From Macrosoma leucophasiata (Eukaryota; Arthropoda; Insecta; Lepidoptera; Hedylidae), in assembly GCA_036365455.1 (NCBI GenBank), contig JAWQUS010000023.1:124001-188000 (forward strand): DNA of 64,000 nucleotides. The letters are read 5' to 3'. The notes below the pieces were generated by a model. It saw only the letters and a list, made by a program, of their open reading frames with translations, was not told the DNA's origin and made no database searches. Numbering within the stretch: position 1 is the stretch's first letter; the number at the start of each line of letters is the position of its first letter. Positions 1 through 58,230 of the stretch are shown here, one piece after another. A program made the translations under genes and the position numbers.

Positions 1-1199
1 TGGGTGCGGGTGACGCGGTGCTCGCGGCCGCGGTACGCAGACGGCACACAGTGCTACACAGTGGGCGGTACGCACCCGCAGCGTGGCGTCCCAGGAGGCG
101 GTGCAGAGCGCGGTGCCGTCGGGCGCGAGCTGGGTGCGGGTGACGCGGTGCTCGCGGCCGCGGTACGCAGACGGCACACAGTGCTACACAGTGGGCGGTA
201 CGCATCCGCAGCGTGGCGTCCCAGGATGCGGTGCAGAGCGCGGTGCCGTCGGGCGCGAGCTGGGTGCGGGTGACGCGCTGCTCGCGGCCGCGGTACGCAG
301 ACGGCACACAGTGCTACACAGTGGGCGGTACGCACCCGCAGCGTGGCGTCCCAGGAGGCGGTGCAGAGCGCGGTGCCGTCGGGCACGAGCTGGGTGCGGG
401 TGACGCGGTGCTCGCGGCCGCGGTACGCAGACGGCACACAGTGCTACACAGTGGGCGGTACGCACCCGCAGCGTGGCGTCCCAGGAGGCGGTGCAGAGCG
501 CGGTGCCGTCGGGCGCGAGCTGGGTGCGGGTGACGCGGTGCTCGCGGCCGCGGTACGCAGACGGCACACAGTGCTACACAGTGGGCGGTACGCACCCGCA
601 GCGTGGCGTCCCAGGAGGCGGTGCAGAGCGCGGTGCCGTCGGGCGCGAGCTGGGTGCGGGTGACGCGGTGCTCGCGGCCGCGGTACGCAGACGGCACACA
701 GTGCTACACAGTGGGCGGTACGCACCCGCAGCGTGGCGTCCCAGGAGGCGGTGCAGAGCGCGGTGCCGTCGGGCGCGAGCTGGGTGCGGGTGACGCGGTG
801 CTCGCGGCCGCGGTACGCAGACGGCACACAGTGCTACACAGTGGGCGGTACGCACCCGCAGCGTGGCGTCCCAGGAGGCGGTGCAGAGCGCGGTGCCGTC
901 GGGCGCGAGCTGGGTGCGGGTGACGCGGTGCTCGCGGCCGCGGTACGCAGACGGCACACAGTGCTACACAGTGGGCGGTACGCACCCGCAGCGTGGCGTC
1001 CCAGGAGGCGGTGCAGAGCGCGGTGCCGTCGGGCGCGAGCTGGGTGCGGGTGACGCGGTGCTCGCGGCCGCGGTACGCAGACGGCACACAGTGCTACACA
1101 GTGGGCGGTACGCACCCGCAGCGTGGCGTCCCAGGAGGCGGTGCAGAGCGCGGTGCCGTCGGGCGCGAGCTGGGTGCGGGTGACGCGGTGCTCGTGGCC
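1..1199 (-). repeat. 130-bp minisatellite made of the 3' edge of Gβ5 exon 5
   Basis: Nine near-identical 130-bp units run from the window edge to the intact exon. Read on the minus strand, each unit carries the last ~28 codons of Gβ5 exon 5 ([20 protein letters not shown] and following), then the 5' splice site CTGCGG|GTGCGTACC, then about 40 bp of intron. The unit is not a multiple of 3. Units differ by a few single-base changes (for example gcatccgca near 201 and gacgcgctg near 271), so they are diverged rather than identical copies. The array continues beyond the left edge. Confidence 0.95.
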
Positions 1200-1589
1200 G
1201 CACAAGACGCAGACGCGCGCGGCGCGGAGCGCGTCCCAGGCGCAGGCCGTGTAGTCGCTGTAGCCGGCGAACAGCAGGCGGCCCGAGACGGACCACTCGA
1301 CCGAGTTGACGCCGAAGATGATGCTGTCCTTGGCGTAGCGCGCCACCTCGCGGTCGGCGCGCAGGTCGAAGAGGCGGCAGCAGGAGTCGTCGGAGCCGGT
1401 GGCGAGCGAGTCGCCGGAGGGGTGAAAGCGCACGCTGTTGACGTCGGAGAGGTGCGTGTCGAAGGCCTGCACGGCGTGGCCCGAGCGCATGTCCCACACG
1501 AGCGCGGCGCGGTCGCAGGCGCCGGACACGAACGTGTCGCCCATGTCGGACGCCGCCAGGTCCAGCGCCATCACGTCCGCCGTGTGCGC
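1116..1589 (-). CDS. Gbeta5: Gβ5 exon 5
   Basis: Starts after acceptor tgtgtgcag|GCGCAC and reads [18 protein letters not shown]. It carries most of the β-propeller (158 codons, phase 0 at both ends). It ends at CTGCGG|GTGCGTACC, the donor that is then repeated in the 130-bp array to the left. About 70% GC, against an AT-rich intron beyond 1620. Which of the tandem donors is used cannot be told from sequence; this is the one attached to the complete exon. Confidence 0.95.
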
Positions 1590-4500
1590 CTGCACACACA
1601 CGCACACACGCACGCTTACACACTTCGAATGTGTGTAAACGCTGTTGAAAAAGAAGAGGTGCTCGTAGACCGAAATGCAGCTTGTGGAAATAATGATGCG
1701 ATGCTCGAGGGCATGGGAGGTCACATGGAGCGGCTCAACATTTCAACCCTTATAATAGGCAATCGGACAGCTATCGAAAATAAATGTAAACTATGATTAG
1801 AATGAATGTTTGTGAAATAATACGATGACTCATTAAATATTTTCGTGAAATATTAATTATTTATATTTTAAAATTGCAAAATAAAATGTAATAATTTGAA
1901 TATTTTTTATCTGTGCTCCATGTTGAACGAAACATCAATCACAGGACGTGACGTCATACGTTTGTACAACAAATATTTAACACAAGTGATACTTTAATTT
2001 ATTGGCTGTTTTTTTGATATTTTCTACGTTAAAAACATGTTTTTACTGAATTAAGTTCTGATCACTGTGGTCAACTAATATCCTTTCATGATGAAATCAA
2101 AAATAGAGATTCAAAACATGACATAGTGTTTGTTCCTATCAATGCGAAGCGGATTAAGAAATTTAGAGAAAATATTAAGCCAAAACTTTCATATGTACAG
2201 TACCATGATGATCCAAATATATTATAACTTTTTTGACATTATTGCAAAAGAGTACAATCTAATCTTTACTAAAAAGACCAAAAATGTAAGAAGTCATAAG
2301 TCATTTAATGAATGGACGACTGTTGGAATACATAAGAGTAGGCAGAGATTGTATGATCTTTATGGTGAAAGATCATATAATCATAGTAATTCTTTTAAAC
2401 ATTATGTTAAAATGTATTCAAAGATATTTAAAAAAGTGTGTGCCATAGCTAAGTCACTACATATTAAAAATAGAATTAAAAATTCAGCAAATAATATTAA
2501 AGCGACATGGAATGTCATTAACAGCGAAACTGGAAAATGTACGGAGCGCAACTCTGATTTTAATTTAATTATTGACAACGCACTTATTTCAACTGACAAA
2601 GAAGTTGCCTCAGCATTCGAAACTTTCTTTGCCAATATTGCAGTTTCTACCACCGAAGACCTTATTACCTACCGTCGCTGAATCGTTATTACTACATAGT
2701 GGAAAAGAAAGTAAATTTAAGTTTAATTTTAAGTTAGTAAGCACTGCAGATATTATGCATGCTTTTAAATGTATTAAAATTAATAGTGATTTATGGGGCA
2801 TATCTGTGAAAATTGTACACTCAGTAATAGACATAATCGCACCATATATAGCGACTATGTTTAACAACAGTATTGTAAGTGGTGTGTTTCCTGATTTAAT
2901 GAAAAATAGTAAAGTTATTCCATTATTCAAATCCGGTAGTACAAGTGACCCCACAAATTTCAGACCCATTTCTGTGCTACCCACTTTAAGTAAAATTTTT
3001 GAAAGGCTCATTTTAAATCAATTACTTTCACACTTCGTCATAAACTTATACATGTAAAACAATTTGGATTTACCAAGGGTCGTTCAACTACTGATGCAGG
3101 TGTTGAACTTTTCAAACCCATATTTGAAGCTTGGGAAGAATCACAGGATGCTCTAGGGGTATTCTGTGACTTATCCAAAGCAATTGATTGCGTCCAGCAT
3201 GAAACATTGGTCAGAAAATTATACCACTACGGAATTCGAGATACCGCTCTCGAACTTATGACTTCATATTTAAGCTCGAGAACCATGTATGTTGATATAA
3301 ATGGAACGAGATCTCCTGGCACTTCGATGGATATGGGGGTCCCGCAAGGCTCAATTCTGGTTCCATTTCTGTTTTTAGTTTATATTAATGACTTGCCATA
3401 CATTGTTAACGATAATCAAGAAATTATATTATTTGCAGATGATACCTCTCTCATATTCAAAATGAAAAGGCAACAAGTAGCTTGTGACGATGTAAACAAT
3501 ACCCTCTCTAAAATAGTACATTGGTTTAGTGCTAACAACCTACTGTTAAATAGTAGAAAGACAAAATGTATTAAATTTTGTACACCTAACGTTAAACAGG
3601 TTGCAACCAATGTGAAACTAAACGAGGAAGCATTGGAATTAGTAGACTCCACGGTAATTCTTGGCTTAACCGTGGATACAAAATTGCAGTGGGGTCCTCA
3701 TATTTCCAATCTAGCGTGTAGACTAAGCTCCGCAGCGTTTGCGGTAAAAAAGATACGATCCTTAACTGACGTTGAGACAGCTCGATTGGTTTATTTTAGC
3801 TATTTTCACAGTATTATGTCCTATGGAATTTTGCTATGGGGGCATGCCGCCGGTGTCAACACCATTTTTGTTTTACAGAAAAGAGCTGTGCGTACTATCT
3901 ACGGGCTAAGTCCGCGAGTGTCTCTCAGAGATAAATTTAAGGAAATAAATATATTGACTGTAGCTTCGCAATACATTTACGAAAATGTACTGCATGTACG
4001 TAAAAATATTAGCGAATTTCCTAGTAGAGCTAATGATTATATGAATACTAGGAACAAACACAAGTTGTCTGTGCACACAACACGACTGCATAGGGTGAGT
4101 AATTCTTTTAGAGGTCAATGTATACGCTTCTTTAACAAAATACATGAAGATGTTCAAAGTCTTTCGATTAATAAATTTAAGAAAGTTATCAAAAAACGTT
4201 TATACATGTGCAACTATTATAAAACATGTGATTATCTTAATGACACTACACCATGGGATTGAAGCGATCGGTCCCAGGCTATTTCGAAAACCTGTACTTT
4301 GGATTTACAGACTGTATTAGATTTAAGTTTATATTCAAAAGAGCTGTACTGAGTTTCTTCAGTGGCGGAGTTCTTCTCAGTATTGACTGCCCTTGGAATT
4401 CATTCTTTCTCAGTTTCTTTTGAAACGGGGAAATGGAGGAATTTGTAAATAATTGATGCTTTCCATATTATACAAAATTGTTCAGTGTCTATTTAATTTA

Positions 4501-10500: not shown

Positions 10501-13500
10501 GTCCCATAGAACTTTGAACCATCTCCTTTGTTTATGCAAAAAATATTAAAAAAAAATATCTGAGATGCTGACAACAACCTCTTTCATTTGATATGTCACA
10601 CGACATCGTTAACGATTTTTTAAATTTTCTGATTTACCCCCCGAAAGTGGCCCCCATGTTTAAAATTTATTATTTTACTTGACGTGTTCATCTTAGGGTC
10701 ACCAATTTACATATATTAATCAAATTTCAACTCAATCGGTCGAGTAGTTTCGGAGAAAATTGGCTGTGACAGACGGACAGACAGACAGACGCATGAGTGA
10801 TCCTATAAGGGTTCCTTTTTTCCTTTTAAGGTACGGAACCCTAATAAAGTAGATCAACGGATTACCTGGAAGCTCTGCAGCAGCTGGCCGGACTCGACGT
10901 CCCAAAGCGCGCACGTGCCGTCGCCGCTGCCCGTCAGGATCTGCCGGTCCGTGTTGGGGAACAGGCAGCACGACATGTACGACGTGTGCGTGGCCACCGT
11001 GCGCTTGCGGCTCGCGCCCCCCGCGCCCCCTGCGCCCCCCGCGCCCCCCGCGCCGCCCGCACCGCCCGCGCCCTCCTCCTCCCCGCCGCCGCCGCCCAGC
11101 GGGAACACTGTCACCTTGTTGTCCAGCCCCCTGCCACACAACTTGCGCGTCATCACTCCGCGGGCAACAAGGGGACAACGCCACCTTCTTGTCCAGCCCT
11201 CTACCACACAACTCGCGCGTCATCACTCCGCGGGCAACAAGGGGACAACGCCACCTTCTTGTCCAGCCCTCTACCACACAACTCGCGCGTCATCACTCCG
11301 CGGGCAACAAGGGGACAACGCCACCTTCTTGTCCAGCCCTCTACCACACAACTCGCGCGTCATCACTCCGCGGGCAACAAGGGGACACCGCCACCTTCTT
11401 GTCCAGCCCCCTGCCATACTTAAATGTGTCCGTGAAGTTAGTAAGAAATCGCTGGGACGAAGGCAATTTATGGTTGAAATGATACGCAAAAGGGACAAAA
11501 GTAGTTAGTTTGCTTTCGTCAGGTCAAAATTTTAAAATCGCACTTTATCCAGTCTGTGTCGTTGACGTCGTGGTTGTGAGCTAACAGATTAGCGTAAAGT
11601 TTACGCAGGCAACTTCACTTAAGTATTTTGTAGTATTAAGTATTGCGAGTACTGTACTCGTCAAATAGTCAACGTCAAGTAGGTGTTCGCGAGGTTCACA
11701 TGTTGTGGAAATTATATTTGCGGATTTCTCTCGCGTATACAGCTACAGTGTTGGTCTACCCGTGATCACTGTAAATGGAAAATTTGAAAGCGACCGAATA
11801 GTCGGGCAAGTGAGGAAGAAGTACTCTGTCTACTGTCTACACAGGAGACATTTGCAAATATAATTTCCACAATACTTGGACGACCATATCTTCAAAAATA
11901 AAAGCGCACAGTATAAAGAAGCATACCCAGCAGCAACCATGTTTCCAGAGGGTGCATAGGCGCAAGCCATGACCCAAGTGCTGGGCATGGCTATAGTCAG
12001 CTCCTTGGTGGCCGTGAACGCATCCCACACTATCACTTTTCCATCCTGCATATACAAATAAATATTATTAGTAATTTTTACTGATGATAGAGCTGGTCGC
12101 TGTCTGGTAGTCTAGCTGTCACCAAGTGTTTAGCACTGTTCCAGTTAGTTGGTAATGTATGGCCCTGCCTGTCTATCCTGTTACCGAGGTAAAACAAAGT
12201 AACTACCATGTTACATAAGTACAGTGCGATTACATTCTACCGTCGAGGTGTACAGTGGCAGTTGCCTAGCCTGCAAATTGTATTTTACAATATTAAAAAC
12301 AGTCATCACCATACAGATAATTGAATTAGTGTTAAAACAATAATTATAAATATAATGATAAAGTCCAGTAAAATTAAATAATTAAATTACAATTCATACA
12401 TTTTTGTCAAATAAGTTTGTCAAATGTCATATTTTTGTATTCATTTATGACATAAAAACAGTGTTCAAGAACCAATTTTTAATCTTCCTTTTAAATACAT
12501 CTAACGGCAAACTTTTAAATGTGTCAGCTAATTTATTGTATATTGATAAAGCGTAAAATGTATACATACACATTTCTCTTGTATAGCTCCAAACGGCATT
12601 TTGGAAGGTATCTACATGTATAAAACAAAGTCGGGTTTGTTACAACACTTATAACTCGAGATCTGCTGGACCAATTTTCATGGTTTTTGATTTGTTGGAT
12701 TTGTCTCCGCCCCGAATAACAGAATACATCTTAAAAATAAGAAAAATTGAAGAATATTTGAAAAACCTAAAAGATCTTTAGTTTCGGAGTTGTCCATTTT
12801 TTTTGTCAAAATCTGTAAGTAATGATTGACATTTATGCATGCGTTCATACAATGCCGGATTTACAAATTTGCCGCCTGTAGGCTATCCAATTTTTGCCGC
12901 CCTTTAATTTTGATATCGTAGTCCACAATCATATCAATTACAGAACAATTATGAGAGAAGAATGTATGTATCTTCACGCCAGGTCCCTAACGGGGTAGGC
13001 AGAGAGTGTAGAGCGCCAGATATACCGGTCCTGACATACCTCTCGTGCCTCGTCTACCTTCATCATTCTCTTCATACATGCACGCCGATTCCCAAGACAT
13101 TTGACCCCACCAACAGACAGAACTCGACCTATTTGGTCATGGTAGGTCAGTCTTGGTCTTCCAGGGCCTCTGCAACCATCCACATTTGCATTGTATATCT
13201 GTTTAGTCATTCGCTCATTCGACATTCTTTCTATATGCCCGAACCATCGGAGCATGCCTTTTTTCATTTTTACACCGATACTATCATTCAACGAAAGCCT
13301 CTTTCTTACACCTTCGTTACGAACGCGATCGGTGAGTGATACACCGCAGATCTTGCGCAAAGACCTCATCTCGACTGCGTTTAACTTACTTTCATGTTCT
13401 TTCCTGCATACCCAGCTCTTGCTTCCATATAAAAGCGTTGGAGTAAGTACAGCATTATGTACGGCTAGTCGAGCCCGCTGGCTGAGGTGTTTCGATTCTA

Positions 13501-22508: not shown

Positions 22509-22970
22509 TTAATTTAAAATGGCATTGCTATTACGCATATTGCCAGTGTCAAGTAAAACCATTGAGATGTATACATAGAGAGGGCACATTCTACTATAGA
22601 AACCATAGATTTTAGAAGTAGATAATTTTATGATAGAAACAGAAACAGGAGTTACACAATAATGGGTAAAATTGACAAAAACAGTTTTGGCTTTTTTTTT
22701 ACGTGGGGAAACCCTCATGTTTCCTGGAGGAGCGGGAGTGACAGGGATGAACTGACCCTCGCCCTCCCGTGGCCCCACCACGTCCCTATCGAGCTGCGGG
22801 ACCACCCCGCTAGGCGGCTGGGGATAGGGTGCAGTGCCAACGATATACCCATACACTTCTTCCGCAGCCGCCTTCCCACCACGTCCCCATCTGAGGGCGG
22901 GACCAGCGTTAAGCGGCTGGGGATAGGGTGCAGAGCCGATGAAATCCCCGTACACCTTCCAGAACGCCAT
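22509..22970 (-). CDS. Candidate small exon/ORF with two APYPQP repeats, function unknown
   Basis: A GC-rich island (about 22715-22975) in AT-rich flanks, the same contrast shown by every real exon here. The minus-strand frame starts ATG in good context (GAAGATGGCG) and holds two imperfect repeats of about 35 residues: KVYGDFIGSAPYPQPLNAG and EVYGYIVGTAPYPQPPSGV. The coding-like part ends near 22690; the rest of the frame runs into a dispersed repeat (22517-22560). It lies in the 1.2-kb space between Gβ5 exon 1 and TRIP13. I do not recognise the family. It could equally be a fragment of a mobile-element protein. Confidence 0.3.
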   Translation of the reverse strand: MAFWKVYGDFIGSAPYPQPLNAGPALRWGRGGKAAAEEVYGYIVGTAPYPQPPSGVVPQLDRDVVGPREGEGQFIPVTPAPPGNMRVSPRKKKAKTVFVNFTHYCVTPVSVSIIKLSTSKIYGFYSRMCPLYVYISMVLLDTGNMRNSNAILN

Positions 22971-23515: not shown

Positions 23516-24829
23516 ATGAGTTTCCCTTTGCATGTAGAAGTGGTGCAAAAAAAACAAAGCCGAGCGACGAAAGATATCATCAAGGAAATAGTACATTCGT
23601 ACTTGGCAAACTTCGAATCGTTAACGCCGGGTGCCACCGTATCCAATCAAGACCTAGAGGAGAACCCGTCGCTGAGGGAGCACGTGCAAGCGATCACGTT
23701 CTGCGACGCGGAGCACGACGCGGACGTAGCGGTGACGGACACCGAGCTGGTGTTTCACGTGTACAAGCTGGACGCGTTCGGCGCCGAGACCGACACGATG
23801 ACGGACGGCGCGTCCGGCGAGGAGGTCGCCGTCGCCGACGTGTGGGCGCTGCCCGCCGAGGAGTTCCACGGGCTGTGGGAGAGCCTCGTGTACGACTGCC
23901 GCCTCAAGGAGGACACGCTGCGCTTCGTGGAGACCGCGTTCGAGTTCGGCGACCGCGGCGTGGACCCGAACGTGGTCGGCTGGAACCGCGTGGTGCTGCT
24001 GCACGGGCCGCCCGGCACCGGCAAGACGAGCCTGTGCCGCGCGCTGGCCCAGAAGCTCGCCGTGCGCCTCGCCGACCGCTTCCCGCGCGCGCGCCTGCTC
24101 GAGGTCAACGCGCACGGCCTCTTCTCCAAGTGGTTCTCGGAGAGCGGCAAGCTCGTCGCCAAGCTGTTCGAGCGCGTGCGCGAGGTGGTCGAGGACCGGC
24201 GGCTGCTCGCCTGCGTGCTCGTGGACGAGGTGGAGTCCCTCGCGCACGCGCGCCGCGCCGCGCTCGCCGGCCTCGAGCCGTCCGACTCGATCCGCGCCGT
24301 CAACGCGATCCTCACGCAGCTCGACCGGCTGCGGCGGCACCCCAACGCGCTCGTGCTCACCACGTCCAACGTGACGGGCGCCATCGACGTGGCGTTCGTG
24401 GACCGCGCGGACATCAAGCGGCGCGTGGGCCCGCCGTCGGCGCGCGCCGCCTACGAGATCCTGCGCGGCTGCTGCGGCGAGCTGATGGCGCGCGGCGTGG
24501 TGGCGCCCCGCGAGAGCCTGTTCGCGCTGCGCGTGCTGGAGGCGGCGCGCTTCGCCGACACGGAGGGCTCCAGCGCCAGCCTGCGGCTGTGGGGCGTGGC
24601 GCGCGCGGCGGCCGCGGCCTCGCTGTCGGCGCGCGCCCTGCGCCGCCTGCCCTTCCTGGCGCGCGCGCTGCACTGCCCCCCGCTCCCCGCGCCCCCGCTG
24701 GCCGCCTTCCTGCGCGCGCTGCAGGCAGCGCTGGACGCGCACGAGCGGGACGCGCGCGAGCTGCGGGACGACACCGAGCCCGCGCCGCCCGCCCCGTCCT
24801 CGCCCCCCGCGCCGCTGGCTCGCACGTGA
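23516..24829 (+). CDS. pch2: Pch2/TRIP13 AAA+ ATPase, intronless
   Basis: AAA+ ATPase that remodels HORMA-domain proteins (HORMADs, Mad2) in meiosis and the spindle checkpoint. 437 aa from the ATG at 23516; the open frame extends upstream only to a GTG. The N-terminal domain begins SFPLHVEVVQ. Conserved LPAEEFHGLWESLVYD is at residues 112-127. Walker A GPPGTGKT is at 164-171, pore motif WFSES at 206-210, Walker B VLVDEVES at 234-241, sensor-1 TTSN at 282-285, and arginine-finger region VDRADIKRRVGPPS at 295-308. RALRRLPFLARAL near the C-terminus is also conserved. A Pro/Ala-rich tail extends past the usual end. No intron interrupts the frame, unlike the three neighbouring genes. Poly(A) signal at 24944. 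About 72% GC. No stop or frameshift: it looks functional. Confidence 0.97.
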   Translation: MSFPLHVEVVQKKQSRATKDIIKEIVHSYLANFESLTPGATVSNQDLEENPSLREHVQAITFCDAEHDADVAVTDTELVFHVYKLDAFGAETDTMTDGASGEEVAVADVWALPAEEFHGLWESLVYDCRLKEDTLRFVETAFEFGDRGVDPNVVGWNRVVLLHGPPGTGKTSLCRALAQKLAVRLADRFPRARLLEVNAHGLFSKWFSESGKLVAKLFERVREVVEDRRLLACVLVDEVESLAHARRAALAGLEPSDSIRAVNAILTQLDRLRRHPNALVLTTSNVTGAIDVAFVDRADIKRRVGPPSARAAYEILRGCCGELMARGVVAPRESLFALRVLEAARFADTEGSSASLRLWGVARAAAAASLSARALRRLPFLARALHCPPLPAPPLAAFLRALQAALDAHERDARELRDDTEPAPPAPSSPPAPLART

Positions 24830-24949: not shown

Positions 24950-24972
24950 ACTATATCATTATTGTCATATCC

Positions 24973-25335: not shown

Positions 25336-25379
25336 CAAAACAAAAACATAAACTATATTTCTGAAAGTCAACTGCCGCC

Positions 25380-26150
25380 CAGCATCCACAGCATGTTGAG
25401 GCCGGCGGGCCCCAGGTGGAGGCGGCCGAGGGCGGGGGCGGTCACCGGCCCAGGATCCACAGCATGTTGAGGCCGGCGGGCCCCAGGTGGAGGCGGCCGA
25501 GGGCGGGGGCGGTCACCGGCCCAGGATCCACAGCATATTGAGGCCGGCGGGCCCCAGGTGGAGGCGGCCGAGGGCGGGGGCGGTCACCGGCCCAGGATCC
25601 ACAGCATGTTGAGGCCGGCGGGCCCCAGGTGGAGGCGGCCGAGGGCGGGGGGCGGTCACCGGCCCAGGATCCACAGCATGTTGAGGCCGGCGGGCCCCAG
25701 GTGGAGGCGGCCGAGGGCGGGGGGCGGTCACCGGCCCAGGATCCACAGCATGTTGAGGCCGGCGGGCCCCAGGTGGAGGCGGCCGAGGGCGGGGGGCGGT
25801 CACCGGCCCAGGATCCACAGCATGTTGAGGCCGGCGGGCCCCAGGTGGAGGCGGCCGAGGGCGGGGGGCGGTCACCGGCCCAGGATCCACAGCATGTTGA
25901 GGCCGGCGGGCCCCAGGTGGAGGCGGCCGAGGGCGGGGGGCGGTCACCGGCCCAGGATCCACAGCATGTTGAGGCCGGCGGGCCCCAGGTGGAGGCGGCC
26001 GAGGGCGGGGGGCGATCACCGGCCCAGGATCCACAGCATGTTGAGGCCGGCGGGCCCCAGGTGGAGGCGGCCGAGGGCGGGGGGCGGTCACCGGCCCAGG
26101 ATCCACAGCATGTTGAGGCCGGCGGGCCCCAGGTGGAGGCGGCCGAGGGC
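25380..26150 (-). repeat. 71-72-bp minisatellite made of the 3' end of Tmem209 exon 9
   Basis: Eleven units. On the minus strand each carries the last codons of Tmem209 (LGRLHLGPAGLNMLWILGR) with its TGA stop and about 15 bp of 3' flank. Early copies (25380-25610) are 71 bp and later ones 72 bp because of an extra G in the G-run. Single-base variants occur (cagcatattg near 25530, gcgatcacc near 26011). The true exon lies at the right end, so the other ten copies fall in the 3' UTR or downstream. Confidence 0.95.
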
Positions 26151-26225
26151 GGGGGGGCGGCGCGCGGCGGCGCTGGCCAGCAGCAGCAACAACGTGTGCA
26201 TCAGGTTGTTGCGTCCCCTGCACAC
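26088..26225 (-). CDS. Tmem209: Tmem209 exon 9 (C-terminus and stop)
   Basis: Acceptor gtggtgcag|GTGTGCAGG, stop TGA at 26090-26088. Encodes VCRGRNNLMHTLLLLLASAA and the family-conserved end NMLWILGR (vertebrate NILWIFGE). Confidence 0.95.
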   Translation of the reverse strand: MCRGRNNLMHTLLLLLASAAARRPPALGRLHLGPAGLNMLWILGR

Positions 26226-29200
26226 CTGCACCACACAAGTACACTTCTCGTTACTTAACTAACACACACCTGTAAGAACTCTTAGCCTGGGTTGCACCAC
26301 GACTTTTGTGAAAGTTATTGTAACATTTCACATCCTGCTATGTTAGTGAAGGATCTGCAATGTAACAATTACTTTATTTTTAACAAATGATGTGGTGCAA
26401 CCCTGGCTTAGTGGTTATGGCAATAAGAATGAACAGACAAAGCGCGCTAACTGTAGCCCTAAGCCGACCTAAGCCGCCCCTCGCTGGCGGGCGAGGGGCT
26501 CACCCCGATGGTGTCCTCGCGCAGGGCCAGCACGTAGTGTGGGGGGCGCGCGGTGACGCGGTGTATGGCGAGGGCGGGGGGCTCACCTCGATGGTGTCCT
26601 CGCGCAGGGCCAGCACGTAGTGTGGGGGGCGCGCGGTGACGCGGTGTATGGCGAGGGCGTGGGGCGGGGGGCGGGGGGCTCACCCCGATGGTGTCCTCGC
26701 GCAGGGCCAGCACGTAGTGTGGGGGGCGCGCGGTGACGCGGTGTATGGCGAGGGCGTGGGGCGGGGGGCGGGGGGCTCACCCCGATGGTGTCCTCGCGCA
26801 GGGCCAGCACGTAGTGTGGGGGGCGCGCGGTGACGCGGTGTATGGCGAGGGCGTGGGGCGGGGGGCGGGGGGCTCACCTCGATGGTGTCCTCGCGCAGGG
26901 CCAACACGTAGTGTGGGGGGCGCGCGGTGACGCGGTGTATGGCGAGGGCGTGGGGCGGGGGGCGGGGGGCTCACCCCGATGGTGTCCTCGCGCAGGGCCA
27001 GCACGTAGTGTGGGGGGCGCGCGGTGACGCGGTGTATGGCGAGGGCGTGGGGCGGGGGGCGGGGGGCTCACCTCGATGGTGTCCTCGCGCAGGGCCAACA
27101 CGTAGTGTGGGGGGCGCGCGGTGACGCGGTGTATGGCGAGGGCGTGGGGCGGGGGGCGGGGGGCTCACCCCGATGGTGTCCTCGCGCAGGGCCAGCACGT
27201 AGTGTGGGGGGCGCGCGGTGACGCGGTGTATGGCGAGGGCGGGGGGCTCACCTCGATGGTGTCCTCGCGCAGGGCCAGCACGTAGTGTGGGGGGCGCGCG
27301 GTGACGCGGTGTATGGCGAGGGCGGGGGGCTCACCTCGATGGTGTCCTCGCGCAGGGCCAGCACGTAGTGTGGGGGGCGCGCGGTGACGCGGTGTATGGC
27401 GAGGGCGTGGGGCGGGGGGCGGGGGGCTCACCCCGATGGTGTCCTCGCGCAGGGCCAGCACGTAGTGTGGGGGGCGCGCGGTGACGCGGTGTATGGCGAG
27501 GGCGTGGGGCGGGGGGCGGGGGGCTCACCTCGATGGTGTCCTCGCGCAGGGCCAACACGTAGTGTGGGGGGCGCGCGGTGACGCGGTGTATGGCGAGGGC
27601 GTGGGGCGGGGGGCGGGGGGCTCACCCCGATGGTGTCCTCGCGCAGGGCCAGCACGTAGTGTGGGGGGCGCGCGGTGACGCGGTGTATGGCGAGGGCGTG
27701 GGGCGGGGGGCTCACCTCGATGGTGTCCTCGCGCAGGGCCAACACGTAGTGTGGGGGGCGCGCGGTGACGCGGTGTATGGCGAGGGCGTGGGGCGGGGGG
27801 CTCACCTCGATGGTGTCCTCGCGCAGGGCCAACACGTAGTGTGGGGGGCGCGCGGTGACGCGGTGTATGGCGAGGGCGTGGGGCCCGCGCGGGGGGGCGG
27901 CGGGCGCACTGCTCACGTGCTCGGAGCTGAAGGGCCGCGGGTTACCCGTCTGCGGCATCTGCGTACAACACCACACTCGTTAACAAACCAATTAGCTCTA
28001 ACGCTCGAATCTCGAAACTCATCATCTCACCGTGCCGATTTTCATAATTCTAGGTGAGAAATTAAACGAGCGTTTCTGAAGAGTGGTTCCCGAGTACCTG
28101 TACGTCGAGGTACGTGGCGAAGAGATGCAGCACGATCTCGGCGTCGGTGGGCTTGGAGGGCTCCCAGTCGGCGCCGCCGCCGCTCCACCGGAAGTCGCTC
28201 AGGCAGCCGCCGCGGGACAACTCTGCGCGCGCAACGTCGACACGTCAATAACGTTACAGCTGTGTCGGCCGATTTACCCGTCTCGGCTCATATCTTTTCG
28301 TCTCGAAATGTTATGTCTCGTTTCGTCCCTGTCTCAAAACGCCCTCTCTCTCATAGAACGTCCGTCGGTCTCTAATTTAAGTCAATCAAAGCTCATCGGG
28401 CCCAACATCGCACTCTGATAAAAGAGATACTTACTGCGACCGAACGAATCGTAAGACTTATGAACATCGGCGAAACGGACGCGTCCACAGAGAGAGGTAA
28501 ATTCAATAATAACAATAATTGAAAAAAAAAGTCAAATCGAATGATCGCGAGTTGATGAGTTATCGCGAACGGTCATTTTCGGATTTTATCCGACCACAGC
28601 GCCCGCGTACCTCGCGAGGAGGTCGGCGAGAAGGCGCGTATCGCATATCCGCGGATCCGTATCGGTCCCAACTTTCCGACTCGAACGGTAAAGGTTATCT
28701 CATAACGAGTACGATCTCGGTGAAGGTCGTGTAATATTGAAACACACACGGAGTACGCACCGGCGATGCGGCGCACGTAGTAGCGCTGGTCGGCGGCGGC
28801 GGGCAGGTCGAGGAAGGGCAGCAGCGCGGCGACGGCGGGCCCGGGCCCCGGGCCGGGGGGCCCGGGGGGCGCGGGGGCGGCCCGCAGGCGCGCGGGGGGC
28901 ACGTGGCCGGGCGCCGGCTGCCCCGCGCGCGCCAGCTCCTCGCGCGCCGCGTCCAGCGCCGCGCGCAGCCGCTCCAGGATCGTCACGTGGATCCACTGCC
29001 ACACGCCACACGACACTCGTTATGAATCATGGCACGCTCTATACGGCTGTGCGATCGCAAACAGGGAAAAGGCAGTCCGGGACGCGGCGAAGTACGGAGA
29101 CGGAGCCGATGATGTTGCGTGTCGGCCCAGTTAATCATCCGATTTTCCGATAATTAGGATGGTAAATGTCTAGTCTCGATCATTTCAAAATATTTCGTAA

Positions 29201-32200: not shown

Positions 32201-35200
32201 AGGTCTTAAAAATTAATAGTGACATCCCGTTCGGGCGTAGCAACAAGAATAGAAGACTTATTTTGAATTGTTAACTAAATTTTAAGTAAGATCCGCAATG
32301 ATTTGACAAACCGTAATTTTCTGGGTGATAGCTGCGACCATTCTCATGTATTATCACTAAAAATCCCAACCCCCAAATGTTCAGCACAAAGAGACTAAGT
32401 TAGGTCAAAAACCAATTATAGGTGAAAATTACGAAAAAAAACATAAAAAATCGGTATTTCCAAAACTACAAAATTTCGCGGAACATACATGGGGTGATTC
32501 GGATACCCCTCACTGCATTTATATTTAAGCTTTGAACGTCAACTCCTCGGTCACCCTGTATACGGACACGAAATATCGTTTTACTTGACACTGGCAATAT
32601 GAGTAAAAGCGATGTCGTTTTACCTTAAAAAAAATTTTACGAGTAGTGCGCATAGATGTTTGTTAGGGGTGTTCGGAGTGTGCGGTGTGAGTTCTCACCA
32701 GTCGTAGGTTGAGGTTCCACTGCGTGAGGCGCTGCGGGTCGAGGTCGAGGCGCCACCACACCTGCGGAGAGCCCTGCGGGGAACCCTCCTCCGACTTGCT
32801 GTTATCTGGACGACAATGTTGAGGCCAAAAATTACATTGTGAGATGACTGTGAGGGGAGGTGTACTTACCGGGGCCAGTAGCGGCGGAGGGGGAGGGAAG
32901 AGTGAGGGGAGGTGTTCTTACCGGTACCGAGGCCAGGGGCGGCGGGCTGGTGGGGGCCGGGGGTGGGAAGACTGTGAGGGGAGGTGTACTTACCGGGGCC
33001 AGTAGCGGCGGAGGGGGAGAGGAGTGAGGAGAGGTGTTCTTACCGGGGCCAGTGGCGGCGAGCTGGTAGGGGGCGGGGGGGGAGTGGGAGGGAAGACTGT
33101 GAGGGGAGGTGTTCTTACCGGGGCCGGAGGCGGCGAGCTGGTAGGGGGCGAGGGGAGTGGGAGGGAAGACTTTGAGGGGCGGTGTACTTACCGGGGCCGG
33201 TGGCGGCGAGCTGGTAGGGGGCGAGGGGAGTGGGAGGGAAGACTGTGAGGGGAGGTGTTCTTACCGGGGCCGGAGGCGGCGAGCTGGTAGGGGGCGAGGG
33301 GAGTGGGAGGGAAGACTTTGAGGGGCGGTGTACTTACCGGGGCCGGTGGCGGCGAGCTGGTAGGGGGCGAGGGGAGTGGGAGGGAAGACTGTGAGGGGAG
33401 GTGTTCTTACCGGGGCCGGAGGCGGCGAGCTGGTAGGGGGCGAGGGGAGTGGGAGGGAAGACTTTGAGGGGCGGTGTACTTACCGGGGCCGGTGGCGGCG
33501 AGCTGGTAGGGGGCGAGGGGAGTGGGAGGGAAGACTGTGAGGGGAGGTGTTCTTACCGGGGCCGGAGGCGGCGAGCTGGTAGGGGGCGAGAGGAGTGGGA
33601 GGGAAAACTTTGAGGGGCGGTGTACTTACCGGGGCCGGTGGCGGCGAGTTGGTAGGGGGGCGGAGGCGGGGCGGGCGCGGGCAGCCAACTGGCCGCTGCG
33701 CCGCTCTCCGCACGCCTACGTTCTTCGTACTGCCTGCCACAGGGAATATTCATATTTTTCATTCGACTTTTTTCATATCCCAATACCGGAGGTCCGACCG
33801 ACACTTACTGCTGTCGATTCCGATTATCTGACCGTGTTCTCCTAATTTGAATATAATATTCTCAAAATGTTATGACCTAGATTTAGATTAACATTATACG
33901 ATACAATATCCCAACAACTATTCTGAATAATAAAATAACCGTACGAAAAAAGACACCTACCTCAAGTAATCGGAGAGGGAGTGTCGGTCAGCGATGAAGT
34001 AGTCGGAACCGAGGCCGTCGTAACTGCGCGAGAAGCGCGGCGAGGAGGTGGCGGCGGTCGGCGAGGGGGGCGAGTGCGTGGAGTGGGGGGAAGGGGGAGA
34101 AGAAGAGGATTGTGGGGAAGTGGCGAGTGGGGAGGGTGGGGAGGGTGAGGAGGGTGAGGGAGGCGAGGGGGGGGAGCGCCAAGCGCGCGGCGACAGCGAC
34201 AGTTCGGCGTCGGAAGCGCGCTCGGCCTCGTCCGCACCCACCGACACATCTGCCTTGCTCGAGCTCTCAGATAACACAAACGATGAATCTGGAAATAAGT
34301 AGTTTAACTTTTTTTTATGTAACGAAAGTGGCAAACAAGCATGCAGTTCACATTGATGTAAAGTGATGACTCCAGCCTATAGACACCCACACAAAGACCA
34401 GCAGTGTGCAAAATGCAGATGTGCTGCCACCCCTGAGACCTTAGTTGATATGTTTCCGTGATAAGTTATTACGGGGTCGTACATTACCACCGAACCGGAA
34501 CACGATAGTGCTGAACACTACCATTTAGCGGCAGATTGATTAGGTAATGCGGTGGTGCCTACGTCCTCGAGCTCCTACACTGGAACTCTACCACCAATAA
34601 AAACTTACTACATTCTAGCCGTTTCTCATCACTTCATATTATATGAGTGAATTGTATTTAACTAGCTGACCCAGCGAACTTCAACTATGGGAGATTTTAA
34701 ATATTTTCTATTTTCATACAAACCTTGTCCTCACAATAACAAACACATAAAATAAAGATTTAAACTGTTCATATTTCATTAATTTTTATAAGAATACACA
34801 AGGTGTCAAGAGAACGCTTCCGAAAAAAAACTGGCAATACTAATGATGAATATGGATACATGGATGTTAATTTTTTTCTTAATTTATCTGTATTTATTAT
34901 GTAGATAAAGTAAACAATTTCTAAAAAGTGATAAACCCATTTAACCTATTTTTCCCTAAAAGAGCAATGAAAATTTTATGAAATTAAACATCTTTATAGC
35001 AATAATATATGTATAAGAGTGAACTTTAAAAGACGGAAAGAAAAATTTGACTTCAGGCAGGAATCGAACCTGCGACCGCAAGATAACCAGTCCAACTAAA
35101 GCACCACTAAGCTAATGAAGTCCCACACCGATGCGTCTTTTGCTTTCCCTTTTTGATTTTTAACTGATTTAGAGTCGGTGAACGACATCCATTGTTAACT

Positions 35201-44700: not shown

Positions 44701-44703
44701 AAC

Positions 44704-45990: not shown

Positions 45991-46003
45991 CCTCCTATAA
46001 AAA

Positions 46004-51290: not shown

Positions 51291-51431
51291 GGCTCGTGAC
51301 TGTCGATGGCGTGCGCGTCTGTCGTGAGCTACGGAAGCGGTTCCATACATTTTCATACTGCATCTAGTCGCGCGCGGCCGATGTCGTCATAAGCCGCGCG
51401 CGGCCTCGACCCACGGAATTGCACCTTATGT

Positions 51432-51620: not shown

Positions 51621-52598
51621 TCTTTTTAGTTTCGTTAGGTAGGATCTCAGGAGAAGATAGTAGCTGAGGCACAGTATTCTTTAATTGAGCTATTTTAGAT
51701 CACCTTACAGTTACTGTGTTCACACAACATTGAAGTACCTGTTCACTTACTATCCACTTTATTTGCCTTCCTCATTTTTGTAATATTTTATTTTGGCAAT
51801 AACACATGCGATTGAGTTTTTCTTTAATTTCTATAATCTCTCATAATTCAATAAATCCCAGTATAGATACCAAATTGACGAGACCACTATATTTTCGCTA
51901 TCATTTTGAAATAACGGTTTTACCTAATGATGATTGTTGAGTGTTATTCTTATACCTACATAATAGTTAGGTAATGAACATTATTCTTCACATGATCCGA
52001 GAAGATAAATCTGTATGTACGAGTATGCGCTAATCTCGGCAAGTTGTGAACGGATTTTGTTCCTGTTTCAAATGTTGGAAAGAGGGTTTTCTGAGGAAGG
52101 CTTGTATCTATAATAAATGCTACCCGTGCGAAACCGGGGCGGGTCGCTATTTAATTATAAATCATATCACGCTCGCCCTCGCCACACTAATATTACATTA
52201 AAATGCATCTTAATCCTACTTTGTTCAAGTTGCAATTAGTCACTAATTACCCCTATTATTATTCTGAACACAGTTGAAATAGAAACAAAAAAATATATAC
52301 ATTACACCATTTATAAATAAAAATAGCACACATATAGATCACTTAAAACTCTTAAAAGTCGACCTACGCGTAACAAGTTGATAATTGATATGAGGCAGAG
52401 GTTTGGTACTTAACGATTTTAAATCTGAACACGTCATTAATAAAATTATAATAATTACTAAGCTGCTTAAACGTGTCGTTCAGACTTTCGAGCTACTTCA
52501 TTTAATAATAAAATCTCGTTTGACACACCACATAGGTACTAAAGTATTGTATAAAAAAGGGACAAGTTATAAGTCGCGGTGAATATTTACGATTTGGG

Positions 52599-52607
52599 TA
52601 TAAATAG
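52599..52607 (+). promoter_or_regulatory. TATA-box-like element without an assigned gene
   Basis: TATAAATAG followed 20-80 bp later by a GC-rich stretch (CGGTCGCGTCGACACCAGCG ... CGCGTCTCACTAAACC) inside an AT-rich, repeat-poor region. This resembles an insect TATA core promoter with a GC-rich 5' leader. No open frame follows within the window on this strand. Confidence 0.35.
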
Positions 52608-53469
52608 CCGGTAAGGTAAAACGGTCGCGTCGACACCAGCGTCCGGCGTCCCGCGCGTCTCACTAAACCGGCTGAGTGTAAACCTAATTTATTTATTTAT
52701 TTATACGTACTTTTGTGATCAATAGTCATCAATGAATCTTAATTCATTAACTCTCTGTCATCTCACTTCAACGTTCAAATTTACTTGATCGACATTAATT
52801 AATTGGAATACTCTATTTGAAAAAACTTATAGATTCACAACAAGATCACGCGCATGACGTACAGAAAAAATATAATATTAAATTATTATGTCTTATATTT
52901 TATTAACTAGGCACTTACAAAAAGTCATAGTGAAGTCGAATAGGTATGCTACCTAGCTCTTAACCAATCTCGTATTACATAATGTGATATATGATTATCT
53001 GATATGCATCAATATATTGACTAATATCTAATATGATCGAGCGCGTCGACTCAGTTTGACCAATTAATCTTCAAGAAGACAATCATTAAAGCAAATCAAT
53101 GTATTAGGTTGGGGAAAAATTTTCTTCGCATTTTTTAAGATAATTCAAAACATTTTTTAATTATTTTACGAAACCAGAAGTGGAAATAAACAAAATAAAA
53201 ACACTACTCTGTGACTATTAATTTTGGTGTACCAAATAAGAAGAAAGAGAAGAAGAAGAACGATATTTGACACACAGTGAGACACATAAAACATACATAA
53301 AACGTAATAACAACGAAATAAAATTAAATTTGTAACGAATCGTTTTAATTGTATAGCGTCTTGTCCTAATATAGGGTACAATAGACAAAATTTGGAAAAG
53401 GCGTCTATTACAATCAGAACGTATCAATAACCATTTGATTGAGGCAGAGGGCAAATGCATTTACATGAT

Positions 53470-53515
53470 TTTTTTTTGGTGAAGGTGTTATGCCCCTGTG
53501 CCGGAAATTACAGGG
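53470..53515 (+). mobile_element. SINE scrap (S1 family)
   Basis: GGTGTTATGCCCCTGTGCCG and GAAATTACAGGGCC match positions 6127-6153 of copy S1. Confidence 0.65.
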
Positions 53516-53764
53516 CCAATTATTTCAAAAGGGGCACAGGGCTTGTATTGGTTGTTGTGGAGCCCTCGGGGCCTTTTTATGCATTAAACAACAAACAAAT
53601 AAGACTGCGGTCTACGTACTTTTGCACAAATTGTTTTTAAGATGGGAACAAAAAATGATTTCTAATGAGCTCTAGTCTTATCAACACCAACAGGCTCTTC
53701 TCCGACTGGAGAGTACTTGTAAAAGAGTAGATCACTTTAATGCGGGATGTAACGGCGAAAATAA

Positions 53765-55455
53765 CTAGCCATACTTAAGAACTGACGAACACGCTTGACC
53801 GTTTTCGGAAGTTCGCTCGGCCGTACCTGACCTTGGCTTCTTCCTTAACCGGTCGATTTGATCTTTGGCGGTAATTTCCGATTCGTCTCTCTTTTTCACG
53901 AGGAGCATCGGACTCGCATATTCAGACTCTATTTCCCGAATGATCTTCTTATCGAGAAGCTCTTGAATGAACTTACGAACTTTCAAAATTTCTGGCAACG
54001 AAAATCTGTACGGCCTATAATTGACAGATGTTGCACCATTCAGTTTGATCGACATGCTGCCAGTACTTAATGTAGTAGCAGTGGTTCCCGAAATAAGAAA
54101 TTTATAAAATTCGTTGATCAAGTCAAGTATCAATCTAGGTCACAACCGATCAAAGACGTCTTCATAGGGATATCATCTGTGGATGAAGCATACAGGACGT
54201 TATCGGTACGCCCCTGTTTATAAGTCAGGTGTTGCTGATTGCGAGTACGAACATAGGTTACCTACTCCTTCACGATTAAACACATCAGTACCGACTATGA
54301 TAGGGGTGGTTAAAAATTCCGGGGATACCGCATGCAAGTCCACTTTGAGAATAATTTTGACGATTAGTAAAGTAACGAAAAAGTAGACTCAACCTCTTGA
54401 CAACCGACACCTCTCAAAATAAGCGAGCTTGCGTGCGCATCTAAAATGTTTTAAGAAAGTGGAGGAAACTAAAGAAATACTTGAGCCGCTATCAATGAGC
54501 ACATCAACGGGTATGCCCTATATATGACTGCCTACATTCTACTACCTACATTTTCGTGACAGAAGTTCACGTTACTAGATTCTGACTTCTTTTTAGCAAA
54601 ACAACTCTGGATCCTGTGGCCAGGTTTTTTACAGAAGCCACATGGTTCGGGTTTCGTTGTACTAGAACTACAGGCAGAGTTACTCTTCTGACCGTTTTCG
54701 ACACTCTTACTATCGCTAAAAACGGGCTTCGACCATTTATAACAATCAGAGGACTTATGGCCACGCTTACCACACGTAAAGCATGCCTCGTCATCGAATC
54801 TAAGCTTACGAGAGCTCGTACCATAGCTAGATTTCGAAGATCGATCATTATTCGATGTATAGGGTCTTTCAAAATTTGGCAGATTCGGTTTGACGTAGAT
54901 CGAAAGGAATTCTACTAGCTGATTCTGAATTCACTTTGCATTTGTAGCGGATGCGCGAATTTGTGGGTCTGTAATACCTCGAATTACGATCGCAGAGATC
55001 AATTCGTCACTTAAGCCACTAACTATACGCAGCCTGAGTAGCGACCGACGAGCGTACTCTGCATACGTCGGATACCCATCCGAATTTGTACTCATTACTT
55101 CGTACAAAATATTTGAAACATCGGACTTCCTAGGGCACATTGGCTTAAATTCCCGTTTAAAATTACTCCAACTGCGGTCACTGGTCACCCATTCATTTAG
55201 CCACGTCCTAGCGTCCCCTTTAACGCAATTACCAATACGAGACAGACACTTATTATCGCTCCAACCGTTAGAGACCTTAGCGCGGTCTACCTCCTCACAC
55301 CAGGTATCTATATCGTTGACACTAGGATCGAAATTAGAAATAAAATACGCTCGGTTGGATCTCACCGTAGTGTTGATGGAACGTATCGCGTCGATCAGTC
55401 GGTCGGCTACGTTGGCATCGTGCTCTACGACCCCACTCCCGGTGACGGGGGTTTC
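53765..55455 (-). mobile_element. Ty3/gypsy-like LTR retrotransposon fragment, degraded
   Basis: On the minus strand: a gag-like region (about 55440-54931) with WLNEWVTSDRSWSNFKREF-type sequence, then two CCHC zinc knuckles at about 54800-54610 (CFTCGKRGHKSSDC and CGFCKKPGHRIQSC). Protease remains are unclear, followed by the start of the reverse transcriptase at 54133-53765 (FSLPEILKVRKFIQELLDKK, SEYASPMLLVKK). The pol region is cut off after the first RT motifs, frames are broken, and no LTRs are recognised. Confidence 0.82.
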
Positions 55456-56040
55456 ATTACGTCGTAATGAAACCGAATCACAAATGAGTACACGGTTCAT
55501 TAGGTTTCTTTCAGTGAGCTCGTGAGGTACCCAAATATCGAGCTTTTTTTTGTACCCAGCTGTTTTCAAATGCGCCAAAACTGTTTTGTGATCAATTCTC
55601 AGTTCTTCAGCTACGTTGTAACTACTGATATGTCGATCTTGCTCCACTTTTTCAAAAATGGCATCCATTTTATCCGTAATCGGGCGACCAGAGCGAGGTG
55701 CCGGATTGAAAACGCTTAAACCAAATTTGTGCTACTCTCACAGACACTGCACTAGGTCCATAAACATCGCAATTTTTTTACGCTGCTTGCGTTGCATTTT
55801 TACCTTTTTTGTAGTAAATTTTTAAAATGTATCGAATTTCTTCATTAAATTCACTCATCTTGACAGTACGAAAAACAAATTAAAATCACACATTTGCCTA
55901 ATTTGAATATGGAATTATGTTCTTTAAAATTTTAACTTTCAATGATACCAAAACCAGCGAGACACAAATACTACAGCCAAAGAGATTTTTTTACAAGTTC
56001 ATACATACTATAATGCGAAAAGACTTTTTCCCCAACCTAT

Positions 56041-56730
56041 TATTTGAGAGATACCTACATGTAACTAAAGTTGAATAGATGTACAAAGGTTGGTTCTGTT
56101 GCACTGCAGATAATTAATAATGTTTGATGTCAGTTTGGCTAATCACAGTTTTATTTTTGCAAATTGTTCAAGCCCGTGATAATGCCAACATTAACAAGTG
56201 TTTGTTGTTAACTCATACATTTCATAAATATCTGCAGTTGACGGCGCGGGTGTTATAATAAGTAAAATTAATTGTACTTTACTTACAACAAGATTGTAAC
56301 ACTGTTTGTTAACCCTAATAAATAAATAAAAAAGACTGTAATACGTATTTTTTATTTATTTATTAGGGTAGGGGGTAAGTTATGAGATCGTCAACGAGGC
56401 CAATATTGTTTTCGATAACAAATTATCAATTAACCTTATCTAGCCGACTTCCAAAGTGTAGGTACTTCTCGCGGACATATCGCACGCATCGAGTACGAAA
56501 CGGTAGACAAAGTTTAACAAACAGTCACATTACATTCTTACGTAAAATCAGTACCATTCTATTCAGCATTAAGGTCCGATGTTTTTTTAATCATTGGAAG
56601 GAATTAACGTATTTTATAAGTGAGCAACGAACGTTTGGACAAAAATATTAACAGAATATGTATCCAATCATCTATTATTCTCGGTCGGTCAGCAAGGCGC
56701 GGTGGGCGGGCGGCGGGGAGGAGGGCAGGG
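56041..56730. other. 3' flank of the ERMP1-like gene
   Basis: AT-rich. Contains minus-strand AATAAA hexamers near 56350 (TTTATTTATTTATT on plus) that could serve as the poly(A) signal. Otherwise nothing recognised. Confidence 0.4.
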
Positions 56731-56734
56731 GGGC

Positions 56735-58230
56735 AGGCTACAGGGCGTGGAGGTGGAGGTCGACGCCCCAGCCGGTGGGCGCGACGTGCGGCGGCAGGGC
56801 CTGCAGCAGGGCGCGGGGGGAGGGCGGCAGGCTACAGGGCGTGGAGGTGGAGGTCGACGCCCCAGCCGGTGGGCGCGACGTGCGGCGGCAGGGCCTGCAG
56901 CAGGGCGCGGGGGGAGGGGGGCAGGCTACAGGGCGTGGAGGTGGAGGTCGACGCCCCAGCCGGTGGGCGCGACGTGCGGCGGCAGGGCCTGCAGCAGGGC
57001 GCGGGGGGAGGGCGGCAGGCTACAGGGCGTGGAGGTGGAGGTCGACGCCCCAGCCGGTGGGCGCGACGTGCGGCGGCAGGGCCTGCAGCAGGGCGCGGGG
57101 GGAGGGGGGCAGGCTACAGGGCGTGGAGGTGGAGGTCGACGCCCCAGCCGGTGGGCGCGACGTGCGGCGGCAGGGCCTGCAGCAGGGCGCGGGGGGAGGG
57201 CGGCAGGCTACAGGGCGTGGAGGTGGAGGTCGACGCCCCAGCCGGTGGGCGCGACGTGCGGCGGCAGGGCCTGCAGCAGGGCGCGGGGGGAGGGGGGCAG
57301 GCTACAGGGCGTGGAGGTGGAGGTCGACGCCCCAGCCGGTGGGCGCGACGTGCGGCGGCAGGGCCTGCAGCAGGGCGCGGGGGGAGGGCGGCAGGCTACA
57401 GGGCGTGGAGGTGGAGGTCGACGCCCCAGCCGGTGGGCGCGACGTGCGGCGGCAGGGCCTGCAGCAGGGCGCGGGGGGAGGGCGGCAGGCTACAGGGCGT
57501 GGAGGTGGAGGTCGACGCCCCAGCCGGTGGGCGCGACGTGCGGCGGCAGGGCGTGCAGCAGGGCGCGGGGGGAGGGGGGCAGGCTACAGGGCGTGGAGGT
57601 GGAGGTCGACGCCCCAGCCGGTGGGCGCGACGTGCGGCGGCAGGGCCTGCAGCAGGGCGCGGGGGGAGGGCGGCAGGCTACAGGGCGTGGAGGTGGAGGT
57701 CGACGCCCCAGCCGGTGGGCGCGACGTGCGGCGGCAGGGCCTGCAGCAGGGCGCGGGGGGAGGGCGGCAGGCTACAGGGCGTGGAGGTGGAGGTCGACGC
57801 CCCAGCCGGTGGGCGCGACGTGCGGCGGCAGGGCGTGCAGCAGGGCGCGGGGGGAGGGGGGCAGGCTACAGGGCGTGGAGGTGGAGGTCGACGCCCCAGC
57901 CGGTGGGCGCGACGTGCGGCGGCAGGGCCTGCAGCAGGGCGCGGGGGGAGGGCGGCAGGCTACAGGGCGTGGAGGTGGAGGTCGACGCCCCAGCCGGTGG
58001 GCGCGACGTGCGGCGGCAGGGCCTGCAGCAGGGCGCGGGGGGAGGGCGGCAGGCTACAGGGCGTGGAGGTGGAGGTCGACGCCCCAGCCGGTGGGCGCGA
58101 CGTGCGGCGGCAGGGCGTGCAGCAGGGCGCGGGGGGAGGGGGGCAGGCTACAGGGCGTGGAGGTGGAGGTCGACGCCCCAGCCGGTGGGCGCGACGTGCG
58201 GCGGCAGGGCGTGCAGCAGGGCGCGGTGGG
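56735..58230 (-). repeat. 94-bp minisatellite made of the last exon of the ERMP1-like gene including its stop codon
   Basis: Sixteen units. On the minus strand each encodes ALPPHVAPTGWGVDLHLHAL, then TAG, then a C-rich spacer (CCCCCTCCCCCCGCGCC). Variants in the spacer (GGGAGGGGGGCAG or GGGAGGGCGGCAG) and a cctgcag/cgtgcag difference recur in an ordered, partly alternating pattern, so units were amplified in groups. As 94 is 3n+1 and stops are absent on the plus strand, all three plus frames stay open for over 1.6 kb. Confidence 0.95.

Follow-up and report, generated by a model that had tools for sequence, protein, structure and literature searches.

Why should the long GC-rich tandem repeats of one gene neighbourhood be built from the ends of its coding exons? 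The question is raised by a 64-kb stretch of DNA from the hedylid Macrosoma leucophasiata (hereafter the window; C23:124001-188000), lying at 124-188 kb along a 20.3-Mb chromosome-sized contig, counted from its start, in which Gb5, TMEM209 and an ERMP1-like gene, all three on the minus strand, carry six GC-rich tandem arrays. It was verified by Tandem Repeats Finder (TRF), by anchored copy counts and by reading of the sequence that the six arrays exist and that, as the original prediction had stated, a coding end lies inside every unit, namely three splice donors, one acceptor and two stop codons (Table 1). Structures of this kind have been described before in other organisms, and here they are not private to the three genes: exon-end arrays are widespread on several chromosomes of this genome, enriched near chromosome ends and not confined there.

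The array-bearing exons of the window have a GC content of 0.73-0.79 and are surrounded by DNA that is mostly 30-47% GC. In most arrays the units are largely exonic with a short GC-rich flank, and in arrays B and E the flank is longer than the exonic part; automatic breakpoint calls were unreliable for C, D and the acceptor array of kinase locus L028, in which unit length is variable. In arrays A, C and F the copies are near-identical, the distal edge of A being an exception, and the order of unit variants is mixed or alternating, as in array E, where the 73-bp units are of two alternating variants. Unequal exchange, or slippage over several units, would be expected to produce such an order, and this order, combined with near-identical copies, suggests recent turnover. 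At the distal end of array A (L008:9020-9155), the repeat is broken by AT-rich sequence, with a degenerate unit remnant further out. It had also been noted that five of the six units are 3n+1 bp long. This is clean for A, B, F and most of E, while C has spacings of 71/72 bp and D mixes 83, 90 and 97 bp, and the rule fails genome-wide, where 15 donor arrays (described below; one spacing taken from each) were split 4/5/6 over the residues 0/1/2.

Table 1. Exon-end arrays with their adjoining exons in the window, and arrays in kinase loci near chromosome ends. L008 is the stretch left of the window, overlapping array A; L024-L028 are kinase loci.
Feature	Position	Strand	Copies and spacing	Content
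Array A	1..1201 (right-hand part); reaches L008:9155 (846 bp left of window)	minus	16 x 130 bp	Gb5 exon end, putative donor (ctgcgg/gtgcgt junction), intron start
Gb5 exon	1116..1589	minus		Its 3' end forms the proximal copy of array A; GC 0.73
Array B	11112..11416	minus	5 x 70 bp	Acceptor (gtggcag/ggggctgg junction), first bases of Gb5 exon
Gb5 exon	10866..11129	minus		Proximal end of array B; GC 0.75; contains 9-bp repeat
Array C	25377..26156	minus	11 copies, 71/72 bp	TMEM209 C-terminal codons, TGA stop, ~10 bp
TMEM209 last coding exon	26091..26225	minus		VCRGRNN...LNMLWILGR*; proximal end of array C; GC 0.74
Array D	26489..27896	minus	15 copies, 83/90/97 bp	TMEM209 penultimate exon end, donor gtgagc, C-rich intron start
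TMEM209 penultimate exon	27806..27961	minus		QMPQTG...REDTIE; proximal end of array D; GC 0.74
Array E	32839..33659	minus	11 copies; seven 73-bp spacings, then 75, 50, 124 (diverged copies)	TMEM209 exon end (upstream of penultimate), donor gtaag
TMEM209 exon	33631..33732	minus		Proximal end of array E; GC 0.76
Array F	56723..58234	minus	16 x 94 bp	ERMP1-like C-terminal codons, TAG stop, ~19 bp
ERMP1-like last coding exon	58151..58327	minus		Proximal end of array F; GC 0.79
L024 stop array			5 copies, 145/163 bp	
L025 donor array			6 copies, 122/107 bp	
L027 acceptor array			4 x 105 bp	
L028 donor array			11 copies, 85-102 bp	
L028 acceptor array			3 copies, 118/98 bp	

In repeats of this kind it must be established which copy is the authentic exon end. 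The three genes were recognised by their Pfam domains (WD40_Gbeta in Gb5, CytochromB561_N in TMEM209 and ERMP1_C in the ERMP1-like gene). Among PDB sequences, GNB5 was the top single-stretch match of Gb5 (252.8 bits), the top row being a Gbeta-1 construct matched in two stretches of 163 bits each, and the exon adjoining array A ends three residues before PDB GNB5 does. With the patterns tried, no last Gb5 exon was located in L008 or in the window, so the donor of array A is a putative one. For TMEM209, 35 relatives were matched, of which 30 were named, all lepidopteran; 32 of the 35 terminate in the motif that array C shows in its proximal copy, with at most one occurrence in each, and the ortholog exon ends placed by tblastn fall on proximal copies. 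In array B, the copies read LDKK, whereas the proximal copy reads GLDNK. These three lines of evidence indicate that the proximal copy is the true exon end, and an intact end was recognised at the array edge through PDB GNB5 for Gb5, through relatives for TMEM209 and by reading for the others, except for the L028 acceptor array, whose exon-proximal end lies beyond the fetched stretch, so that its exon end was not seen. Our own scan revealed a tandem peptide repeat in none of 155 relatives of TRIP13 and TMEM209. The claim that one end of the array is always occupied by the true exon agrees with the proximal copies; this arrangement follows from geometry whenever a tandem duplication crosses an exon end.

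The recurrence of these arrays was addressed in genes of another family. Kinase exons were searched genome-wide, and five loci at most 170 kb from chromosome ends were picked before any sequence was read; long GC-rich arrays were found in four of the five, and all five arrays that they contained straddle coding ends by reading. Under a uniform criterion (TRF period of at least 50, score of at least 200 and GC of at least 55%), GC-rich arrays numbered seven in the 64 kb of the window, six of them straddling coding ends, and five in 30 kb of end-proximal kinase loci. None was found in 150 kb of interior stretches (15 x 10 kb, placed at round coordinates between 1 and 12 Mb away from the nearest end) or in 32 kb of interior kinase loci (eight of 4 kb); the 150-kb interior set contained three AT-rich arrays. 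No array with a period of at least 50 was present in four further loci (12 kb) at 0.4-1.0 Mb from the ends. Besides its donor array, locus L025 displayed a degenerate 7-14 bp repeat (L025:912-1040) that starts at the stop of a kinase gene, receptor-tyrosine-kinase-like by reading, and whose unit includes this stop.

A genome-wide test relied on the donor word. The assembly is chromosome-scale, with 616 Mb in 61 contigs, and 21 of its chromosome-sized contigs measure 9.8-28.3 Mb. Pairs of the word were counted at two spacings (SAGGTGAG N{62,92} SAGGTGAG, and the same with N{92,122}), and the word read backwards served as the single control, resulting in 230 versus 147 and 264 versus 173 pairs, respectively. 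Arrays, defined as three or more matches and not short-period, were counted on contigs C1-C14 and C1-C6, which were complete for both words; one short-period repeat was set aside in each of two pattern listings, and the matches on C15 at one spacing and on C7 at the other were left out, the latter with at least four further donor arrays. The donor word formed 15 arrays and 15 isolated matches, and the backwards word formed two arrays and 30 isolated matches (Fisher p = 1.4e-4). Since the isolated matches numbered 15 versus 30, the donor word is not simply commoner. When three weak arrays were removed (three or four matches with one irregular gap, all interior), the counts became 12 versus 2 (p 0.0007-0.002), with 6 of the 12 within 1 Mb of an end. 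Among all 15 donor arrays, 6 were within 1 Mb of a chromosome end, against an expectation of about 9% from the share of sequence there (p 0.0013). A strictly subtelomeric occurrence, also considered, is ruled out by the other nine. The longest array among the matches listed was found at C7:2241478-2245537, with 34 donor-word pairs at a spacing of ~117 bp over 4 kb.

The association might still be a by-product of base composition, and it was compared with random placement in the window, where each array was collapsed to one unit and 19 coding stretches were annotated. Among placements with GC of at least 65%, 13-32% straddle a coding end and 61-72% lie inside coding sequence, and the probability that six of six straddle a coding end is 3e-5 among such positions of the collapsed window. 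When placements lying wholly in coding sequence were removed, this probability became 0.005 at GC of at least 60%, 0.04 at 65% and 0.08 at 70%, and was smaller at lower thresholds. For ten arrays, which comprise the six of the window and four from kinase loci (the L028 acceptor array was excluded, as its exon lies beyond the fetched end), the probability of ten of ten is ~3e-7 among placements of at least 65% GC. The window null, the five straddling arrays of the preselected loci and the donor-word test altogether uphold the predicted association with exon ends beyond chance. The placement nulls also indicate that GC content and the purging of duplications inside exons explain much of the pattern, a leftover boundary preference being possible and unproven.

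Exon GC content is itself related to chromosome position. Across 19 kinase exon matches, GC declines with the distance from the chromosome end (Spearman -0.85, p 5e-6), as does GC at third codon positions (GC3; Spearman -0.74, p 3e-4), the loci being few in number and in part picked for their proximity to an end. It was described that GC3 climbs toward telomeres, most steeply in Lepidoptera, for which GC-biased gene conversion was argued (PMC10978632), and that lepidopteran chromosome ends show higher GC and repeat density (PMC11009112). In the window, arrays occur on 6 of 11 annotated exons with GC of at least 0.73 and on none of the 8 below it (Fisher p 0.018), a threshold set post hoc with the data already seen.

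We consider it probable, at about 0.62, that these arrays are minisatellites of the type named "mirages" in amphioxus, arising in GC-rich exon islands, and that those at coding ends survive since an intact exon copy remains. Many coding exons close to chromosome ends are highly GC-rich in this lepidopteran, and each such exon would constitute a small GC-rich island ending ~10-50 bp past the coding end, with GC-biased gene conversion as the presumptive source of its GC content. Within these islands, often with C-runs and sometimes capable of forming G-quadruplexes (G4), replication slippage and unequal exchange would create and expand tandem duplications. A duplication over a donor, an acceptor or a stop would keep one complete exon and leave the extra copies in the intron or the 3' untranslated region (UTR), where they would be tolerated and could grow; a duplication wholly within an exon would have to be in frame or would presumably be purged. 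The arrays would mostly be neutral leftovers, through which introns and UTRs are lengthened from their own exon ends. Repeats found inside exons are mostly 3n in length (9, 12, 18, 21, 24 and 27 bp), and no long array was found in the long GC-rich exons of TRIP13 (1314 bp) and L025 (1232 bp). Short repeats within coding exons include a 9-bp repeat at 11013-11073, in a Gly/Ala-rich insert of Gb5, and an 18/9-bp repeat at 61222-61298 in the ERMP1-like gene.

A number of observations weigh against this reading. Arrays are not universal near chromosome ends, where two exon sets of lower or comparable GC speak against it: 5 of the 11 window exons with GC of at least 0.73 lack one. Of six kinase loci at most 170 kb from an end, a degenerate 27-bp repeat was all that L026 contained, and no array was found in L037, the sixth (62 kb from the end), which was chosen later. 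Proximity to an end is not required, given that 9 of the 15 donor arrays are more than 1 Mb away, and the exon context of these 15 pattern arrays is deduced from the donor word and a few letters. Purging predicts the 3n repeats within exons but not the degenerate 14- and 17-bp repeats that are also found inside them, unless those are old. The unit of L027 is 3n (105 bp) and is open through its copies by reading, so that part of it could be translated; it may be a tolerated in-frame case. Only 4 of 11 units contained a G4 motif, in each case on the template strand. Finally, when whole-exon placements are excluded from the ten-array null, the probability of ten of ten is 0.0002-0.004, a value biased low because exons outside the genes that were read are unannotated, which hints at a boundary preference beyond purging.

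This last result speaks for a different origin, in which duplication is initiated at the boundary itself by breaks or fork stalls at the exon-intron GC step, or by structures linked to splicing or transcription. The window taken alone gives 0.005-0.08 under the same conditions, and GC-rich non-coding placements exist and are almost unused (one weak array of the seven in the window). However, the incomplete exon annotation that lowers the ten-array probability weakens its support, and the stop arrays C, F and L024 are at no exon/intron border, so that splicing is not the general cause and is not required. Regarding transcription, R-loops favour G-rich RNA, and the sense strand is C-rich in all eight donor and stop arrays and G-rich in all three acceptor arrays; the sign of the skew is thus wrong for the donor and stop arrays, and the R-loops over exon ends that the original prediction had proposed are disfavoured as their origin. 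On balance, we regard initiation at boundaries as a tentative alternative, doubtful on the present evidence. Concerning strands, it was also observed for 9 of 11 arrays that the G-rich strand reads inward from the chromosome end closest to it (one-sided p 0.033), a bias confounded with gene direction and with donor or acceptor type, which constitutes a lead for a replication-strand idea.

The remaining explanations are far less probable. Repeated donors, acceptors and stops could have a selected function, buffering or regulating the choice of splice site or stop, as might be read from the retention of GTGAG in 15 of 15 counted copies of array D (with an anchor tolerating three changes) and of GTAAG in 11 of 11 counted copies of array E (also with a tolerant anchor). 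The copies are, however, so alike that this retention needs no selection, most distal donors would shift the frame where units are not 3n, and amphioxus mirages were reported not to disturb splicing (PMC3087553, PMC3902484); such a function is therefore very unlikely. GC-rich minisatellites could simply track GC-rich DNA, with the exon ends being incidental, and the GC-rich DNA of the window is indeed largely exonic, but the placement probabilities given above for six of six and ten of ten arrays (3e-5 and 3e-7), together with the 15:2 ratio of donor to backwards arrays against a single control word, make pure chance more improbable still. An assembly artefact, through collapsed or false expansions, is the least credible of all: although array lengths are known from the assembly alone, this is a chromosome-scale assembly in which arrays of 0.3-2 kb show distinct, ordered unit variants, and the phenomenon recurs independently on several chromosomes.

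Other repeats of the window delimit the pattern. The prediction that every GC-rich array lies at an exon boundary is correct for six, and the seventh, at 22774-22955 (99 bp x 1.8, 82% identical), matches no exon identified in the window and possibly derives from a mobile element. A further departure from the prediction is an AT-rich 104-bp array detected by TRF at 63696-63967. A 168-bp intron of the ERMP1-like gene (59587..59754, minus strand) consists largely of decayed copies of both flanking exons, with 57 bp at 91% identity from one exon followed by 70 bp at 83% from the other, and it may be related, in non-tandem form, to the process behind the arrays, which suggests that there were older events of this sort. 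An intronless relative of TRIP13/PCH2, whose best named matches are from butterflies and moths, is located at 23516-24829; it adjoins TMEM209, and serial gene names in two other lepidopterans suggest that the pair is conserved.

A structure known as a curiosity of a few lancelet genes is thereby extended to an insect order in which chromosome-level genomes are plentiful, and tied to exon GC and chromosome position. The growth and gain of introns through tandem duplication of exon ends become testable at scale across lepidopteran assemblies. It is conceivable, though we would not presume it, that the rise of exon GC toward chromosome ends in Lepidoptera has made exon ends a genome-wide source of minisatellites, through which introns and 3'UTRs would grow out of the adjoining exons and evolution would be supplied with new tandem splice sites and stops, and that the position of the coding end, not GC alone, helps to set where tandem duplication starts. 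As a caution for annotation, gene models near chromosome ends may take up repeated donors, acceptors and stops.

The phenomenon is not without a name, as had been supposed. Tandem repeats of intron/exon boundaries were described as mirages in amphioxus, where they are known in the globins BflGb6 and BflGb9, Adh3, troponin C and PGBD5 (PMC3087553, PMC3902484). The likeness is close, involving minisatellite-like tandem duplications over 5' or 3' exon/intron boundaries, many copies that keep AG/GT, an authentic exon end at the array edge and homogenisation of units, which measure 10-160 bp in amphioxus versus about 70-163 bp here. Arrays A, B, D and E, those of L025 and L027 and both arrays of L028 have an intron/exon boundary in their unit, as mirages are defined, whereas the stop-codon units of C, F and L024 go beyond this definition. 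The present arrays further differ in belonging to Lepidoptera, in having up to 16 copies, in occurring several per gene neighbourhood, in their very GC-rich exons and in their enrichment near chromosome ends; for amphioxus, splicing was reported to be undisturbed and array length to be unstable between haplotypes or cells, while the arrays described here are known from the DNA of one assembly. No report of exon-end arrays in Lepidoptera was found in the one open-access library searched and, to that extent, what is new comprises the lepidopteran occurrence, the link with exon GC and with chromosome ends, the arrays over stop codons and the genome-wide donor test.

Three other systems share features with these arrays. 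The minisatellite of IFI6 (6-16) is likewise a donor-bearing tandem repeat at an exon end, and two of its downstream repeats serve as donor sites in alternative mRNAs (Turri 1995, cited in PMC4526556), whereas the arrays discussed here were studied as DNA sequence. Human segmental duplications carry minisatellite-type boundary repeats that alter gene structure, but these belong to primate paralogs, average 30 bp x 4 and were selected for evidence of transcript change (PMC2812944). Subtelomeric and G4 minisatellites such as CEB1 (PMC7063842) are also GC-rich, enriched toward chromosome ends and in some cases G4-capable; in contrast with them, the units of Macrosoma leucophasiata are derived from exon ends, and a G4 motif, by our own pattern, is present in 4 of the 11.

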